Assembly (NCBI GenBank): GCA_040388625.1
Contig: JAZKBK010000002.1
Location: forward strand, 1 to 64,000
Source of the DNA: Gemmatimonadota bacterium
GTDB taxonomy: Bacteria; Gemmatimonadota; Gemmatimonadetes; Gemmatimonadales; Gemmatimonadaceae
Reading direction: 5' to 3'
Length of the DNA stretch: 64,000 nt
Notes under the pieces: generated by a model
The model's database searches: none
Told to the model about the DNA's origin: nothing
The model's input: the letters and a program-made list of their open reading frames with translations, nothing else
In this document: positions 13,248 to 20,683 of the stretch, one piece after another
Layout of the letters: every line of letters starts with the position of its first letter
Numbering within the stretch: the stretch's first letter is position 1
Program-made: the position numbers and the translations under genes

Positions 13248-15104
13248 TTAGCGGGCGACGAAGGTGGCTTCCACCATGGTGACCCAGATTTCCGGATCGA
13301 GCGTCACACCAACCGGCGCACTGGCCAACGGGATCGAGACAGTATTGTGAGCGGCGCGCACCCATAACACCGGCGTGGGCGTCGGCGACGGAGGGGCGGT
13401 GCGGGCGCCACTGCCAGCGGGCGCGGCCTCAGGCGGCATTTCAATGCCGATCTGGAAGGGCATGGTGTAGAGCTGGCCCTGGTTGGGCGTCTGGTCGAGC
13501 GTTACCGCGAGCTGCTTGCTCGCGGCATCGTAGTGCCAGCTTCCATTCACCTTCATCACCCCGCCGCGGTGCAACCACTGCGGGAAGAACCAGGAGAGGT
13601 CCTTGCCGTAGGCGGGACAATCGGCTGCGGCTGCGCAGGCATCCTCCATCGCATGCTGGAAGTCCAGGCTGGATGCGTTGGAGTTTTGGTAACGGGAGTA
13701 GTAAAGGCGGATGCCGGCCCAGAAGTTGTCGGTTCCGAGTACGCCGCGCAGCATGTGGAGGACCTGGGCGCCGCCCTGATAGATCTGCGCATTGTTGGCG
13801 ATCACCTTGCTGATATCCGACAGATTGTTGTGGACCAGCGGTGAAGTCGGATTCGCCTCGGCGTAGCGACGGGCCGAAGCGGCGCTCGATTTCACGCCCT
13901 TGATGAATGCGTCGCGGCCGTCCTGGTGTTCCTGATAGAGCAGTGCGAAGTACGTGGCGAAGCCTTCGCTGAGCCACACATCATCCCAATCCGCTTCGGT
14001 AGCGGAGTTGCCGAACCACTGATGCGCCATCTCGTGGGCGAGCAGTTGGCGATCCGGCCCGGTGGCTGGGTATCCGTAGAAAATGTCGGAGGCGAGCTCC
14101 ATGCCGCCGCCTATGCCATTGGCTTCCACCTGGGCCAGCTTCTCGTAGGAATACGGACCGATGTGGTCGATGTAGAACTCGAGAATGGGCTGGGTGAATT
14201 CGCCGAATGCCTTCGAGCTGACTGCCTGTTCCTGGGGATACGTCCATCCCGACATGGGGATGCCGTGGTACGTCCCGTAGTAATCCACCGCGTACGGGGC
14301 GGCGGCCAGCGAGTACTGCCACGTGGCGATCGGCACCGACTCCTTCCACACGGTGCGACGCAGACCGTTGGCCAGGTCGGTCGATTCCATTTGGGTGCCG
14401 TTGGAGATGACCTGGTATTTGGCGGGCGCGGTGACCGCGATTGTCTTGGGCGCCTTCATGTAGGGGTGATCCACAACGGCGAGCCAGTTGCGGGCCTTGT
14501 CGGGCCACGGGTTTGAGACAAACGAGCGATCACCGTACTTGTTGTCGGCGATCAGGATGCCGGTTGCTGGCACGCCGTGATAAGAGACCGCGAAGGTGAT
14601 GCGACCACCCGCCCTGGATGCGGCGGGGAAAACGACGTGCAATCGATCGTTGGCCTGAGTGTAGTGCAATGCCTGCCCGGCGGAGGTGACGGAAGTGACG
14701 ACCATCCCCCGCCCCACGCTCGAGACCGGCGGGGCGGCTGGCTCTCCCCGACGCGTGCGAACGGCAGGTACCAGGCATGGATTCGAGGGATTGGCGGCTT
14801 CAGACGCGGTGCGCAACTGGCAGAGGTCGAGATCCATACCTGTGACGCCGTCGGCCGTGAAGGCGAGATTCACTGTATCGGTGACGACCAATTCGTTGGA
14901 TGCGTCGCTGAGCAGGACAGTGAAGCTGTAGTTGACAACCCGGAAGCCCGTCTGGCGGGGATAGGTGTCGACCGTGGTGGGCGAACCCGTGGTGGGCGAA
15001 CCCGTGGTGGGCGAACCCGTGGTGGGCGAACCCGTGGTGGGCGAGCCCGTGATGGGAGATGCTGCCAGCAGCAGCAGAGCGGCTGCGAGAGTGGAGCTGA
15101 TCAT
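13248..15104 (-). CDS. Secreted M1-family zinc aminopeptidase
   Basis: A 618-residue M1 metallopeptidase. A signal peptide (MISSTLAAALLLLAAS) is followed by an unusual SPTTG tandem linker (residues 16-44). The active site is canonical: HEMAHQW with H357, E358 and H361, the third zinc ligand E380 exactly 18 residues later, and the exopeptidase loop GIGGGMELASD in place of GxMEN. It removes N-terminal residues from peptides in the periplasm or outside the cell. Start 15104 is used because the signal peptide begins there. The protein lacks the long C-terminal ERAP-like domain of larger M1 enzymes. It is convergent with the PAS/zinc gene. Confidence 0.9.
   Translation of the reverse strand: MISSTLAAALLLLAASPITGSPTTGSPTTGSPTTGSPTTGSPTTVDTYPRQTGFRVVNYSFTVLLSDASNELVVTDTVNLAFTADGVTGMDLDLCQLRTASEAANPSNPCLVPAVRTRRGEPAAPPVSSVGRGMVVTSVTSAGQALHYTQANDRLHVVFPAASRAGGRITFAVSYHGVPATGILIADNKYGDRSFVSNPWPDKARNWLAVVDHPYMKAPKTIAVTAPAKYQVISNGTQMESTDLANGLRRTVWKESVPIATWQYSLAAAPYAVDYYGTYHGIPMSGWTYPQEQAVSSKAFGEFTQPILEFYIDHIGPYSYEKLAQVEANGIGGGMELASDIFYGYPATGPDRQLLAHEMAHQWFGNSATEADWDDVWLSEGFATYFALLYQEHQDGRDAFIKGVKSSAASARRYAEANPTSPLVHNNLSDISKVIANNAQIYQGGAQVLHMLRGVLGTDNFWAGIRLYYSRYQNSNASSLDFQHAMEDACAAAADCPAYGKDLSWFFPQWLHRGGVMKVNGSWHYDAASKQLAVTLDQTPNQGQLYTMPFQIGIEMPPEAAPAGSGARTAPPSPTPTPVLWVRAAHNTVSIPLASAPVGVTLDPEIWVTMVEATFVAR
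14973..15059. repeat. 15-bp tandem repeat coding for an SPTTG linker
   Basis: About six copies of a 15-bp unit (top strand GTGGGCGAACCCGTG) lie inside the M1 peptidase gene just after the signal peptide. Four inner units are nearly identical, which suggests recent expansion. The unit is a multiple of three, so copy-number change alters linker length without a frameshift. Confidence 0.9.
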
Positions 15105-15361
15105 TGGTTTTTCATGTGGTTGCGCCTGACAGGCGATCGACGAGGACGAAGATGTCTTTCGCGCGGGGACACCGCAAGAAATCACGCAGGAAGAGTCACT
15201 CGACAAATCGACTGGTGGCGGAACGGTTCAATCCGCTGTCATTTGCGATGTTGTCCATGCGTGTCCAATTCGACTCGGCGGTGAGAGTGCGACGCGGCGA
15301 ATCGATGAGCCGGGAGGTGAAACGATTCGATGGAACGCGCTGAGGCGTCGTAGGTTGGAAA

Positions 15362-15604
15362 ATGCCGGCATACTCGTTCACCGACTATTTCGAACGTGAG
15401 GTACTTCGGAAACGACCGTATCTACGCCGTGAATGGTGTATTGCAGTTATCGAGTCCCCGGATCGGGTCGAGCGGCAAGAGGACAACCGATACCGGTTCT
15501 GGGGGATGGTAGCCGATCTCGGAGGCCGGTATCTTCGTGTAGTGACACTGGATGACAGGCGTACGATCCACAACGCCTTCCCCGATCGCGGATTCCGGCC
15601 ATGA
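15362..15604 (+). CDS. Small DUF4258-like protein, possible toxin of a pair
   Basis: An 80-residue basic protein (FEREVLRKRPYLRREWCIAV, RFWGMVADLGGRYLRVVTLDDRRTIHNAFPDRGF). Its strand-rich second half ending in RYLRVVTLDD resembles DUF4258-type small RNase-toxin-like proteins. Its stop codon overlaps the ATG of a DUF2283 gene (ATGA), a pairing typical of toxin-antitoxin-like modules. Toxicity is inferred only. No clear ribosome site is seen. Confidence 0.6.
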   Translation: MPAYSFTDYFEREVLRKRPYLRREWCIAVIESPDRVERQEDNRYRFWGMVADLGGRYLRVVTLDDRRTIHNAFPDRGFRP

Positions 15605-15819
15605 AGCTCGCATACTACGCGAACACTGATTCTCTCTACATCGATCTGTCCGAACAGACGAGCGTGTCGAGTCGCGAGATCTCGGAAGGGGTCGTGCTGG
15701 ATTATGATGCCGCGGGACAACTCGTCGGCATCGACATCGACAACGCCAGCCGCAAGGTCCAACTCCAGCGACTGGTCCTAACGGGCATGGACGGGCTGAT
15801 CGAACAACGCGCGAGCTGA
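15601..15819 (+). CDS. DUF2283 domain protein, possible antitoxin partner
   Basis: A 72-residue protein that fits DUF2283: MKLAYYANTDSLYIDL, then SREISEGVVLDYDAAGQLVGIDIDNAS. Members are compact beta-strand proteins often encoded directly after small DUF4258-like or BrnT-like genes. Overlap by four bases with the preceding gene implies translational coupling. I infer an antitoxin role from this arrangement; there is no DNA-binding helix. Confidence 0.75.
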   Translation: MKLAYYANTDSLYIDLSEQTSVSSREISEGVVLDYDAAGQLVGIDIDNASRKVQLQRLVLTGMDGLIEQRAS

Positions 15820-15922
15820 TCAACCCTGCGGCGCGCGAATCAGCCTCCCGCTCCCGCGATGACGCCGCACGATATGACCAGGGCAATAGATTTGCATACA
15901 TGGACGACCGTGCATAGCCCCC

Positions 15923-15938
15923 TCGAACGGTCGTTCGG
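15923..15938. promoter_or_regulatory. SOS-box-like palindrome TCGAACGGTCGTTCGG
   Basis: It differs from the 11381-11396 site at one base and has intact arms CGAACG/CGTTCG. It lies 37 bp before the start of the antitoxin gene, in the position of a promoter operator. Confidence 0.5.
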
Positions 15939-15975
15939 ATAAACCGGAACTAACGCGTACACAGGACCTTCCATA

Positions 15976-16206
15976 GTGGATCGGAACGCCGACGCGCTCG
16001 CTGATCAACTCCTCGCCCTCCCATCCGTTGATCGCGCACGTCTTGCAGAACTGCTCCTGGCAAGCATCGAAGAGCACGACGCAGGCGCTGCTTCAGTCTG
16101 GGACAATGAGATCGACAGACGCGCTAATGAATTAGAAAATAGATTGGTGGATGGGATCTCCGCAGCCGAGGTATTTGCTGAAGTAGAGCAACAGCTGCAC
16201 CGATGA
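15976..16206 (+). CDS. Addiction-module antitoxin (Unstab_antitox-like)
   Basis: A 76-residue acidic, helical protein with GTG start. The segments LADQLLALPSVDRARLAELLLASI and SVWDNEIDRRANELENRL followed by ISAAEVFAEVEQQL match the putative addiction-module component family (TIGR02574-like), partners of RelE/ParE toxins. The stop codon overlaps the ATG of a toxin reading frame that is broken by a nonsense codon. It is therefore an orphan antitoxin. A palindrome 37 bp upstream could be its operator. Confidence 0.8.
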   Translation: MDRNADALADQLLALPSVDRARLAELLLASIEEHDAGAASVWDNEIDRRANELENRLVDGISAAEVFAEVEQQLHR

Positions 16207-16307
16207 TACTCGAGTTCCACCCAGCAGCGCGCGATGAGTTTCTCGCAGCCGCGGAATAACACGACAAAGCGGCCCCTGATCTCGGGGCCGCTTTCTTGTC
16301 GCAGTGA
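16203..16307 (+). pseudogene. Decayed ParE/RelE toxin remnant
   Basis: The ATG at 16203 overlaps the antitoxin stop and reads MILEFHPAARDEFLAAAE, then TAA (16257). In the same frame it continues HDKAAPDLGAAFLSQ before a second stop at 16305. Family members read EYY-x-x-x-x-PGLGxxF at this very spacing, so a Tyr codon has become a stop. The rest of the toxin is missing: after 16307 the homology ends. Confidence 0.75.
16266..16294 (+). terminator. Strong hairpin, probable intrinsic terminator
   Basis: AAAGCGGCCCC and GGGGCCGCTTT form an 11-bp perfect stem with a 7-base loop (TGATCTC), followed by CTTGTC. The U-tract is short, but the A/T-flanked GC stem is typical of terminators. It lies within the toxin remnant and would end the antitoxin mRNA. 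Confidence 0.65.
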
Positions 16308-16382
16308 CGCGCACCACCTCAGGCCGGGGTACTGGCGTAATCCACTGAATGGCTGGATCATTGGCTCCTGCGTACCTGTTCG

Positions 16383-16826
16383 ATGTCCACCAACCTGCGA
16401 GAACCCATGGCGTCCGCGAATCCACGTCCGCAGCCCCTGCAGCTGATCCGCCTTTTTCTGATGGCAGGAGTATTGATGTTCGGCGCCGTCATTCTGGTCG
16501 TTCACCGGCAGCCGAACTGGACACCGGGAACGCTCCCGGACGCAGCTGACTACGCGCTGGTGGCAGACGCGATTCTGGCGGTGTCGATTGCCGCGGTACT
16601 GAAAGGACGCGTGCGACGCGAACCCGATCAGCAGCGCCGCGCCTCGATGCTCCTCGTCGGGTGGGCTGTCGGTGAGAGCGCGGCGTTGTTCGGCGCCGTG
16701 ATCTTTTACGTTACCGGCCAGATCCAGTGGTATGGACTCGGGCTGCTGGCGATGGTGAGCGCGTTTGTAATGCTGTCGCCTTCCGCGGCGGCGCCGACGG
16801 CAGGCAGCGCGGATGCGTCCGGATGA
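16383..16826 (+). CDS. Hypothetical four-helix membrane protein
   Basis: A 147-residue protein with hydrophobic helices near 20-42, 58-76, 88-110 and 115-131, and an N-terminal cytoplasmic tail. The pattern (RLFLMAGVLMFGAVILVVHRQPNW, WAVGESAALFGAVIFYVTG) recalls small bacterial membrane proteins of unknown function; no family is named with confidence. An alternative start is ATG 16407. It is followed closely by a secreted protein gene. Confidence 0.55.
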   Translation: MSTNLREPMASANPRPQPLQLIRLFLMAGVLMFGAVILVVHRQPNWTPGTLPDAADYALVADAILAVSIAAVLKGRVRREPDQQRRASMLLVGWAVGESAALFGAVIFYVTGQIQWYGLGLLAMVSAFVMLSPSAAAPTAGSADASG

Positions 16827-16936
16827 GATGAACATTCCGTGCGGCGACGAACGTGAGGTGGTGCTGGTCATGTTCCGAACGCGTTGCGGATGACGGGTCC
16901 ACTCGCTTCTCCTCTGCATGCTCACTCGCTGGAGCG

Positions 16937-17422
16937 ATGACCGCAGCATTGCTTGCCGGCACCGCAGCACCAGCCCTCGCGCTCTCGACATTGACCACTG
17001 TTGCGACTACGGTCGCTGTACATCAGGGTGTCGAACCGCTCACGGTGGACAAGATGACGCGCATGTACCAGGCGATGGTCAACTTCGCAGTGGCAACGAA
17101 GGGCCACCCCGAGTCCGAGGACGCACTATCGGTCGATGCCGATGACAGCGAAGCGCAGGCAACTGCGAAGATCGCGGCAATTCCCGCCGCCGTCGAAGCG
17201 CTCAGGAAAGCTGGATTGACGCCCGCGCAGTACGTCCGACTCGATCTGACGTTCGCCGCGACCGCACTCGGCGTGGCTCTGTTGAAGACGAACCCGTCGG
17301 CCAAGCTTCCGGACGGCGTCAGCCTCGCGAACGTCCACTTCCTGCAGCAGCACGCGGCAGATATCGAAGCGGTGCAGAAGCGGATGGCGGCACAGATGGC
17401 CGCGGCCGGCGTCGATCAGTAG
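16937..17422 (+). CDS. Hypothetical secreted protein
   Basis: A 161-residue protein with a signal peptide-like start (MTAALLAGTAAPALALS). The mature part is helical (MYQAMVNFAVATKGHPESEDAL, ALRKAGLTPAQYVRLDLTFAATALGVALLK, VHFLQQHAADIEAVQKRMAAQM). The family is not recognised; the helix-rich pattern suggests a small periplasmic helical bundle. An upstream in-frame ATG at 16853 would add 28 residues that look non-native. It converges on the kinase gene with 14 bp between stop codons. Confidence 0.5.
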   Translation: MTAALLAGTAAPALALSTLTTVATTVAVHQGVEPLTVDKMTRMYQAMVNFAVATKGHPESEDALSVDADDSEAQATAKIAAIPAAVEALRKAGLTPAQYVRLDLTFAATALGVALLKTNPSAKLPDGVSLANVHFLQQHAADIEAVQKRMAAQMAAAGVDQ

Positions 17423-17436
17423 AATCGGACGCTCGC

Positions 17437-19995
17437 CTACTTACTCCACTTCACGAGCGAATTCTCCCCGGTCCTGGCACGCCGGCGCATCGCATCCGTA
17501 TCGTTCCGCATCGATGTGATGATCTGCTGGAAGCGCGCATTATTTGTCAGGCGTGCGAAGAACGGATCGCGCACGATCACGCGATAGTTCTTCCATCCGG
17601 CGTTGTACCCGCGCTGCAACCAGTCGAGCGCTGCGGCTGAATCTCCGCGCACGGCGTGAATGGCGGCTATCTCCATCGGGCGTTGCGGATCGTCGTTACC
17701 GCTCGCGATGGCGCGCTCATCGGACGAGAGTACCTCGTTCCATGTACGCGTTGCCATCGCGTGGTCGCCGCGCCGATCGGCGAACAACGCATGCCAGGCG
17801 GGGAAGCGCGCGGGCGCCAGATCCACGCCTGACTCCGGATTTGCGAGGAGTCGCGTGCTCAACAACGCATCCGCATCCGGCGCTCCGGTGAGTGCTGCGA
17901 GTTGTGCCAGGAACGACGCAACTTCATCGTCGTGCGGGTTGCTGGCCGCTGTACGCCGGGCACGAGCCATCGCTTCGCTGTCGCGGCCCCGCAGGAAATC
18001 AAGCGCGGCGAGTGCAATTTGGAGGCGTGGACCGCCTGGACTGTCTGCAAAGCGCCGTGCTGCCACGTCGAGCAGGTCTTCGGTCGCCTGATCATCGCCG
18101 AGCCGGAGAAGCGGAACTGCAGTGTGGTAATAGACGTGAAACTCATTCGGATCGAGTGGCTGCGCGCGCAACGCCCAGTAAAGCGCCTGCTCGTAGTGGC
18201 CCAGCATGGTCTCGGCTTCCGATAGATCCTCCATTGCTGGCACGAGGCTCTGGTCCAACTCCAGCGCCCTCAGATAGGACAGTCGTGCGTCGGCAAGATG
18301 TCCCTGAGAAGCCTGAAGGTCGCCGAGGACGAACGACGCGTATGCCAGATCCGGTTGGAGGCGTAACGCCGTGCGCGCCGCCACGCTCGCGGAATCGAGA
18401 TAGGCCGGCCCCGTGTAAGCCGCCATGAACATGAATTCGCGCGCGAGCTCAGCGTATGCAAGAGCGAAGGTAGTGTCGAGCGCAATGGCATCGTGCATGC
18501 CCGTGATTGCTGCCTGTGCGGCCGCACTGCTCACTACCGGAATGGAGTGCGCCTGCAGGTAGATCCTATACGCGTCGACATTTGCTGTCGGAGCGCGATC
18601 CACGCGTCCTGCCTCCGACGGTGTGAGCTTCGCCTGCAGCGCCGCGGCGATGCGATGCGCGACGTCGCTCTGCACGGCGAAGATGTCGGTGAGATCGCGA
18701 TCATACTGGTCCGACCAGAGCGTCTGACCGTTCGTCGCGTCCATCAATTCGACGTCGATACGAATTCGCTTCCCTGCCACCCGTACAGTTCCATCCACGA
18801 CGCTACCGACACCCAGGTCATGCCGCATCCGGCCCAGGCGGTCGGATACGTTCTCGTATGGCGCTGACGCAGCCTGACTCACCACACGCAGCGCCGCGAG
18901 CTTCGAGAGCTGCCCGCTTATCTCGGCGGTCATTCCGTCGCCAAAGTATCGCTGAGCGCTGTCCGACGCGATGCTGTGAAAAGGAAGCACCGCTACGATC
19001 CGTGCAGCGGCGGAGCCGTTCGCTTCAGTCCCTGCCTCCGAGCTTCGTCGCGCGAGCGCAATACCGGCGCCGATTGCGATCACTACAGTTACGACAATTC
19101 CAGCGACGGCGAAGGACTTTCGTTGCCTGTACCATGGCGGCGTCGGAATGCCAGTGGCACCGGCAGAAAGCGCGTGACTGAATGCATGCGCACTCGAAAA
19201 TCGATCGGCGGGAAGTTTTTCGAGAGCGCGAAGCACGGCAGCGTCGACGGCCCGGGGAACGGTGTGGCGCTGTACGCGCAGGCTGCGCGGCGTCTCCGTC
19301 ATCACTCTTGCAACCGTCGCCTGCGCCGTTGGCGCGGCGAATGGCGGCTCGCCCGCGAGCATCTCGTACGTGACGGCGCCCAATGCATAGATGTCCGTGC
19401 GCGCGTCGAGAGCCTGCTCACCCATTGCCTGTTCGGGTGACATGTACTGCGGTGTTCCGAGCGAGAGACCGGTCCCTGTCATCCGCTGTGCGCCGCCGGC
19501 TTGCTGCACGGCGAGTGCGATTCCGAAATCGGCGACGACCGGACGGCCATCCTGGAGCAATATATTTTCAGGCTTGATGTCGCGATGGATCACGCCGTGC
19601 CTGTGCGCGTACTCGAGCGCATCGGCAACGTCGGATGCGATGCGTATCGCGTCTTCGACCGGAAGCTGGCGCTCGCGATCCAGTCGCGCTCGCAACGTTT
19701 CGCCTTCCACGTACGGCATCACGTAATACAGCAACCCATCTGCATTGCCGGAGTCGAACAATGGCAGGATCACGGGATGCTGCAGACTCGCCGTCAGCTC
19801 AATTTCCCTGAGGAAGCGCTCGGGGCCGAGCGTCGCCGACAGATCGGTGTGCAGAACCTTGATTGCGACCTTGCGGTGATGCTTGAGATCTTCCGCGAGA
19901 TACACCGTCGCCATGCCGCCCGTACCAAGCTCGCGCTCGATGCGGTAGCGATCTGCCAGCGCGGGAGTCAGGCTGTGGGCGGCGTCGTTGGACAT
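17437..19995 (-). CDS. Membrane Ser/Thr protein kinase with TolB-like and TPR regions
   Basis: An 852-residue eukaryotic-like kinase. The kinase domain (about 16-290) has the Gly loop ELGTGGMATVYLA (22-34), catalytic Lys46, HRDIKPEN (137-144), DFG (156-158) and a GTPQYMSPEQ activation segment. A single membrane helix (about 310-330, FAVAGIVVTVVIAIGAGIAL) follows. Outside it is a region like the adenylate-cyclase/TolB N-terminal fold (IVAVLPFHSIASDSAQRYFGDG) and then TPR-like repeats with alternating helices to the C-terminus. This layout is common in Gemmatimonadota and Acidobacteriota. It probably phosphorylates cytoplasmic targets in response to a periplasmic signal. Start 19995 gives the normal short N-tail. 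Confidence 0.9.
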   Translation of the reverse strand: MSNDAAHSLTPALADRYRIERELGTGGMATVYLAEDLKHHRKVAIKVLHTDLSATLGPERFLREIELTASLQHPVILPLFDSGNADGLLYYVMPYVEGETLRARLDRERQLPVEDAIRIASDVADALEYAHRHGVIHRDIKPENILLQDGRPVVADFGIALAVQQAGGAQRMTGTGLSLGTPQYMSPEQAMGEQALDARTDIYALGAVTYEMLAGEPPFAAPTAQATVARVMTETPRSLRVQRHTVPRAVDAAVLRALEKLPADRFSSAHAFSHALSAGATGIPTPPWYRQRKSFAVAGIVVTVVIAIGAGIALARRSSEAGTEANGSAAARIVAVLPFHSIASDSAQRYFGDGMTAEISGQLSKLAALRVVSQAASAPYENVSDRLGRMRHDLGVGSVVDGTVRVAGKRIRIDVELMDATNGQTLWSDQYDRDLTDIFAVQSDVAHRIAAALQAKLTPSEAGRVDRAPTANVDAYRIYLQAHSIPVVSSAAAQAAITGMHDAIALDTTFALAYAELAREFMFMAAYTGPAYLDSASVAARTALRLQPDLAYASFVLGDLQASQGHLADARLSYLRALELDQSLVPAMEDLSEAETMLGHYEQALYWALRAQPLDPNEFHVYYHTAVPLLRLGDDQATEDLLDVAARRFADSPGGPRLQIALAALDFLRGRDSEAMARARRTAASNPHDDEVASFLAQLAALTGAPDADALLSTRLLANPESGVDLAPARFPAWHALFADRRGDHAMATRTWNEVLSSDERAIASGNDDPQRPMEIAAIHAVRGDSAAALDWLQRGYNAGWKNYRVIVRDPFFARLTNNARFQQIITSMRNDTDAMRRRARTGENSLVKWSK

Positions 19996-20125
19996 GAGTG
20001 CGCGAGTCGTTCCACGACCTGAGAGTCGCGAAGCGTACACAGGAACATGGCTTTTGAGAGGCCTTTATGCCAGAGGCGCCGGCGATCGGACGGAGCGGCG
20101 CGCGTAACGACGGTGGATTGCTCCG

Positions 20126-20683
20126 TCAGCCGTCCTCAATCGAACGAATGACCCGCGCCGGATTCCCCCCGACAAGAGTATTCGGTGGAACATCCCTCGT
20201 GACTACCGAACCAGCGGCGACGACCGAATTCTCACCTACCGTTACGCCGCCAATGATGGTCACGCCCGCAGCGATCCACACGCCTTTCTCGATCACGATG
20301 GGCGTTCCCGTAACGGCGCGTCGCTGTGCGGGCTCGATGGGATGGCCGGTCGTGATGAGGCTCACGTTCGGCCCGATCATCACGTCGTCCGCGATGTCGA
20401 GGCCGCCAAGGTCGTAGAACGTGCAGTTCTGATTGATGAAGACGTTATGGCCGACGCGGATTTCGTTCCCGCCAGCGGTATAGAACGGAGGGATCAGTGA
20501 AAAGCTCTCGTCCACCTTCCCGCCGATGAGTTCGCTGAACAATGTGCGAATCTCATCCGCATCGTCTAATGTCAAGCGGTTGAGCGCGGCGGTGATCGTC
20601 ATCGCCCGCTTGACGTTTGCCACCATGGCCGCCGATTCCGGCGTCCGTCTGTGGATTATCCTGGTGCGATCGTTGTTCGGCAT
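20126..20683 (-). CDS. Hexapeptide-repeat O-acetyltransferase (maltose/galactoside type)
   Basis: A 185-residue left-handed beta-helix acetyltransferase. The family landmarks are present: PPFYTAGGNEIRVGHNVFINQNC, FYDLGGLDIADDVMIGPNVSLITTGHPI (with the catalytic His of TGHP), GVWIAAGVTIIGGVTVGENSVVAAGSVVTRDVPPNTLVGGNPARVI. These trimeric enzymes use acetyl-CoA to acetylate sugar hydroxyls, and this one is close to LacA/Maa/NodL. The substrate is unknown. Start 20683 (MPNNDRTRI) removes a non-homologous N-terminal extension. It is divergent from the VOC gene. Confidence 0.88.
   Translation of the reverse strand: MPNNDRTRIIHRRTPESAAMVANVKRAMTITAALNRLTLDDADEIRTLFSELIGGKVDESFSLIPPFYTAGGNEIRVGHNVFINQNCTFYDLGGLDIADDVMIGPNVSLITTGHPIEPAQRRAVTGTPIVIEKGVWIAAGVTIIGGVTVGENSVVAAGSVVTRDVPPNTLVGGNPARVIRSIEDG

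Follow-up and report, generated by a model that had tools for sequence, protein, structure and literature searches.

A type II toxin-antitoxin (TA) module has very probably decayed in the stretch of DNA analyzed here, with the toxin dead by several lesions, the antitoxin gene open and constrained, and a hairpin inherited from the toxin gene that most likely ends or stabilizes the antitoxin transcript. This stretch, called the window throughout, is 64,000 nucleotides long (G000:C2:1-64000) and belongs to a draft genome of 3.84 Mb in 22 contigs. Loss of the toxin with survival of the antitoxin, which had been proposed from the sequence of the window alone, is well supported by comparative sequence data, namely several lesions in the toxin gene, different lesions in sister species, an intact relative, and the selection seen in the antitoxin (dN/dS). 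Toxin decay that leaves an orphan antitoxin is most likely an event of a known kind, in which the hairpin is the sole unusual detail.

The antitoxin gene

15976..16206, + strand: orphan antitoxin of 76 aa, PF09720 Unstab_antitox and near TIGR02574 (open reading frame and profile match)

The 76-aa product scores 35 bits against PF09720, above the curated cut-off of 23.3, and 27.7 bits against TIGR02574, under the cut-off of 31.9, and no other PF09720 match occurs in the whole genome (E 0.01). Its start codon is a GTG at 15976; the codon just before it (15973-15975) is ATA in the window versus ATG in the relatives G002, G003 and G065, which are described below.

Pairwise dN/dS values (NG86) for the antitoxin are.104/.444 between the window and G002,.145/.943 between the window and G003, and.122/.791 between G002 and G003. 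When changes are assigned to branches, the window branch carries 10 synonymous and 9 non-synonymous ones (Fisher p.015) and the G003 branch 13 and 9 (Fisher p.001), while the G002 branch, with 5 and 6 (p.17), has no significant constraint when taken alone. At the level of sequence comparison, these values show an open gene under purifying selection, which cannot be dated to the time after the death of the toxin. No shift of selection in the N-terminal half of the antitoxin was found: residues 1-33 hold 0 of 9 window-branch changes, and since the pattern is alike on the G002 (0 of 6) and G003 (1 of 9) branches, it is uninformative on the loss of the toxin.

Lesions in the toxin gene

16203..16356, + strand: toxin pseudogene (PF05016 ParE_toxin in the intact relative), 154 of about 297 bp left (alignment with relatives)
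16257..16259, + strand: lesion 1, nonsense codon at codon 19 (frame translation)
16308..16312, + strand: lesion 3, junction at CGCGC of a 139-bp deletion relative to G002 (5-bp repeat)
16309..16356, + strand: out-of-frame remnant of the toxin C-terminus, AHHLRPGYWRNPLNG, followed by the lost end codon, lesion 4 (alignment and translation)

The toxin ATG at 16203 overlaps the antitoxin stop, and the frame that it opens reads MILEFHPAARDEFLAAAE up to the TAA at codon 19, so that the antitoxin frame, the toxin start and the early stop described in the sequence-only reading were all recovered by frame listing and translation. Behind the TAA, the frame continues as HDKAAPDLGAAFLSQ up to a TGA at 16305-16307. 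The same reading held that the toxin had been killed by one nonsense codon, and this proved wrong, as the toxin carries at least four lesions. The second one, a 1-base deletion revealed by alignment with the two same-genus copies, affects the right arm of the hairpin; because of it, the residues 'AAF' lie outside the ancestral frame, which is followed only through 'PDLG'. The PxLGxxF pattern reported in frame past the stop is thus partly real: PxLG stands in the old frame and 'AAF' is accidental. The third lesion has CGCGC at its junction, a sequence that flanks the lost 139-bp stretch at both ends in G002. Toxin sequence does continue beyond 16307, where the sequence-only reading had named an intact continuation as refuting it, although what continues is only the out-of-frame C-terminal remnant and not an intact toxin; from this, a large internal deletion must be added to the nonsense codon.

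The pseudogene is colinear with the intact toxin, its start aligning with those of G002, G003 and G065 and its C-terminal end aligning with G003 by alignment and with G002 and G065 by eye. Translated into 34 aa, with X in place of the stop codon, the window remnant matches no family in the profile search, PF05016 included. A functional type II TA module requires two open, overlapping genes, and here the toxin frame is closed.

Relatives of the module

A search with the antitoxin gave matches in six of 60 genomes, a set that includes the window's own (E 0.001). Within the genus, the antitoxin is held by G002 (80%) and G003 (72%), both metagenome assemblies, and G001, of the same genus, has no match in this 60-genome search. 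Both holders have a broken toxin, each in its own way. The G002 toxin reads VILEFHPAARDEFLAAAEYYETAVPGLGGRFLVAVTRATDIVL, then TAA, then the remainder of a full-length toxin, which scores 32.9 bits against PF05016 (cut-off 23) when read with X at the TAA. An internal deletion that keeps the frame has shortened the G003 toxin to 62 aa, which score 14.1 bits, below the same cut-off. An intact module was found one step further away, in another genus of the same family: in G065 the toxin is intact at 98 aa and scores 38.2 bits against PF05016, and the antitoxin is open and scores 45.2 bits against PF09720. An intact module, which the sequence-only reading suggested looking for in sister strains, is present in this other genus and not in the two same-genus species that hold the module, and the alignment with ParE homologues, suggested likewise, exposed the decay of the toxin through the nonsense codon and three further lesions.

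Over toxin codons 2-37, dN/dS (NG86) between G002 and G003 is.038/.648. The low dN points to a part that was constrained until late and favors late, separate losses, so that the comparison suggests, without proving, that the toxin was lost late and separately. The G002 stop sits in the stretch that is deleted in both the window and G003, and therefore the ancestor may already have carried it.

At E 1e-8 or better, antitoxin matches were found in 11 of 179 genomes of the family (the window's included), at 14 places, and the toxin side was read in every one of these genomes (in G177 at one place out of four). The toxin is open in five (G065, G010, G115, G166 and G177) and interrupted in six (G000, G002, G003, G106, G113 and G122, the last near the C-terminus only), while the antitoxin is interrupted only in G113, where the toxin is mostly gone as well. 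Stops flagged in the antitoxins of G166 and G177 were rejected as interruptions, being the genes' own end codons. The search ran by the antitoxin, and loci that had lost the antitoxin outright would therefore escape these counts. Further decayed modules occur in another genus, at L091 (G106:C2:203536-203766), where the toxin alone is broken, and at L095 (G113:C107:13906-14136), where both genes are. In addition, the single-contig genome G177 carries the same TA module four times on C1 (L092, L097, L098 and L099), with identical search scores. Homologues of the toxin are present in 44 of the 179 genomes at E 0.001, including the window's, G002 and G003.

Genomic surroundings

15362..15604, + strand: 80-aa open reading frame overlapping the DUF2283 frame, TA-like in layout by eye, next to the module and not part of it (open reading frame list)
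15601..15819, + strand: DUF2283 protein of 72 aa, PF10049, 60.4 bits (profile search)

Window positions 15474-16317 match contig C34 of G002, near a 1004-aa HsdR-like frame (named by eye), while the peptidase neighbor of the window sits on a different G002 contig, C6. There (L019), the equivalent of 15191 directly joins a 38-base match to 20239-20276 and 15192-20238 is absent, the far anchor being short. The absence of this stretch behind the G002 peptidase, with the module on another contig, indicates an accessory module that was moved or lost between species. Ten plasmid records hold toxin homologues, all less than 60% identical, and a plasmid source of the module was rejected for that reason. 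A phage source was also rejected, as none of 11 pattern matches in viral contigs is a relative, in a scan able to find only close relatives.

Some other observations concern the same neighborhood. The 5' part of the 15362-15604 frame (about the first 37 codons) is unaligned in G002, whereas DUF2283 stays open; positions 15640-15708 and 17313-17428 have their counterparts at other places on the G002 contig that carries the peptidase; and the N-terminus of the peptidase frame (14965-15060) is a tandem short repeat, GSPTTGSPTT...

The hairpin in the toxin reading frame

16266..16294, + strand: 11-bp hairpin, arms 16266-16276 and 16284-16294, loop 16277-16283, over toxin codons 22-31 (A-V-P-G-L-G-x-R-F) (hairpin scan)

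The 11-bp hairpin noticed from the sequence alone was confirmed by both the hairpin scan and folding. No other perfect hairpin of 11 bp or longer (loops 3-8) occurs in the 64 kb, and among 10 shuffled windows one had such a hairpin; the folding of the stretch has z = -4.8, with 0 of 200 shuffles folding equally well. The partly U-rich stretch TTTCTTGT at 16292-16299 forms a T-rich tail only when the outermost three pairs are open: with all 11 bp paired, what follows the stem is CTTGTCGCAG, with 3 T in 10 and a poor U-run, and with those three pairs open the tail becomes TTTCTTGTCG, with 6 T in 10, the match in the consensus scan having a stem of five pairs. Between 13000 and 20000, the consensus terminator scan gave 6 sites versus 3.9 (sd 1.8) expected, which is no excess. 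As for known RNA families, the only match, RcsR1, stayed below its threshold (24 bits against 60), lies on the minus strand, and was taken as chance.

The hairpin is present over the same codons in G002, in G003 and in G065, whose toxin gene is intact, so it was not made by the loss of the toxin, and the idea of a new terminator created by the death of the gene was rejected. Comparison of these sequences shows that the hairpin was inherited, in this lineage, from the toxin's own reading frame.

Whether the codons fold better than their amino acids demand was measured against several nulls. With synonymous draws following the codon use of the window, the folding of the 30-nt stretch was reached by 0 of 1000 draws for G002 and by 11 of 1000 for G065, and the other 28 of 30 homologues scattered as by chance (lowest.028). 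Under a cruder null, in which the GC preference was fixed, the values were.0065 for G002,.0575 for G003 and.0045 for G065. When codons were permuted within genes, segments starting at codons 19 and 22 reached z values down to -5.1 in G002 and -3.4 in G065, and the mean over 30 genes, these two included, was -0.1 to -0.2 at the hairpin site. The combination of the hairpin and the T-rich codons that follow was rare in 20000 synonymous draws each (5e-5 for G002,.0007 for G003 and.0014 for G065), T-richness alone not being unusual (.10 to.15). A general feature of ParE-type genes was considered and rejected, because the 30 homologues lack an average signal, the lowest mean z being -0.6 at codon 67. 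Beyond chance, the hairpin is unseen in the 28 more distant homologues and is thus confined to four related, non-independent sequences.

Retention of the stem was evaluated by permuting the observed differences over the stretch. P was.0024 to the window from G002,.0002 from G003 and 0/5000 from G065;.012 from G065 to G002 and.016 in the opposite direction; and.073 from G065 to G003 and.006 in the opposite direction. Between G002 and G003 there was no excess conservation (.43 from G002 to G003,.08 from G003 to G002). Owing to shared ancestry and to the choice of the site for its hairpin, these comparisons are not independent tests.

Possible role of the hairpin and other explanations

In the preferred reading, the mRNA most likely folds into the hairpin about 60 nt past the antitoxin stop, and the hairpin would there end, shield or stabilize the antitoxin transcript, the U-rich tail being weak for a terminator. 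Translation of the toxin in an intact gene would partly keep the hairpin from acting; in the window, ribosomes would leave at codon 19 and set it free. The antitoxin would persist because a loss that begins with the toxin does no harm; it may in addition neutralize related incoming toxins. A stronger version, which is rather unlikely, takes the hairpin and U-rich tail in codons 22-31 for a selected attenuator, by which the transcript is cut or shielded just behind the antitoxin and an excess of antitoxin is maintained. Ribosomes that translate the toxin would override it, and after the death of the toxin it would remain as the 3' end of the orphan antitoxin's message.

Plain decay has slightly less than an even chance and coincides with the preferred reading except for the role of the hairpin. 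Both genes would be on their way out, the antitoxin merely lagging behind because its loss brings no benefit, and the hairpin would be a functionless coincidence inherited with the GC-rich codons of A-V-P-G-L-G-x-R-F. Those codons fold fairly well by themselves (mean synonymous folding energies of -10.3 kcal/mol for G002 and -8.4 kcal/mol for G065), and transitions often keep pairs through G-U. The stop in the G113 antitoxin, beside a toxin that is mostly gone, and the missing ATG just before the window's GTG agree with this course of events, which is opposed by antitoxin dN/dS values well under 1 and by a hairpin whose strength and conservation beat the synonymous or permuted nulls in several, not all, comparisons.

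It is possible, if doubtful, that the antitoxin is also kept as an active anti-addiction factor or as a regulator in trans, which would be an addition to the preferred reading. The open antitoxin frame in three species with broken toxins, its dN/dS below 1, and the frequency of toxin homologues in the family and in the 10 plasmid records are consistent with such a role, for which a model is already published (PMC7354431), although slow decay of the antitoxin would fit the present data equally. The genome itself speaks against it: its only PF05016 match has a partner-like frame of its own upstream (by eye), so there is no obvious client toxin for the orphan antitoxin, and a client within the genome was rejected on that ground.

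It is improbable that the hairpin caused the damage. An imperfect palindrome serving as replication template would, in one or a few events, have produced the stop, the substitutions and the 1-base deletion, killing the toxin and perfecting the stem. Differences between the window and G002 do cluster, with 5 non-synonymous and 1 synonymous in toxin codons 20-28 versus 0 and 7 in codons 2-18 (Fisher p.005), and those between the window and G003 number 5 and 2 versus 1 and 7. The eight window-G002 differences fall in the left arm, just before it, or in the loop, save the right-arm 1-base deletion; the stem is kept, and the left arm of the window now pairs with the right arm over 11 bases. By eye, however, copying of the other arm explains only about 3 of the 8. 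Finally, the idea that the module is intact and was misread in sequencing or assembly, for which only the draft state of the genome speaks (22 contigs), is hardly credible and was rejected, since the four lesions, which include a changed end codon and the loss of 139 bp, are more than one read error could cause.

Comparison with known systems

The locus shares gene order, stop/start overlap and families with type II modules that pair a PF09720/TIGR02574 antitoxin with a PF05016 toxin, of which G065 holds an intact copy, and differs from them in its toxin, a pseudogene that carries four lesions. Decay of other modules is known to have left orphan antitoxins, for example beside a parE pseudogene in Caulobacter crescentus and beside the frameshifted YacB in Shigella, where the toxin is likewise broken and the antitoxin open (PMC7354431). 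Unlike in those cases, two sister species here break the same toxin in other ways, and a hairpin of the toxin gene is retained.

Hairpins able to set the relative amounts of toxin and antitoxin transcripts are also on record for other TA operons, as in axe-txe, with a terminator-like hairpin region downstream of txe (PMC3760812), and in hicAB, for which a title cited in PMC13048266 names a noncanonical intrinsic terminator (NAR 2025 gkaf125). The window hairpin, whose role is putative, lies inside the toxin frame at codons 22-31, in contrast to the axe-txe region, which is described as downstream of the toxin. The passages of PMC3920265 consulted name no hairpin inside a toxin gene, and among the matches listed, titles and the beginnings of abstracts describe none inside a type II toxin reading frame, which is weak evidence of absence.

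Significance

The locus offers a clean case of the death of a TA module, in which the toxin is broken differently in sister species and the antitoxin stays. If the hairpin is functional, a toxin reading frame can carry a control element for the message of its antitoxin, and such an element can outlive its toxin.
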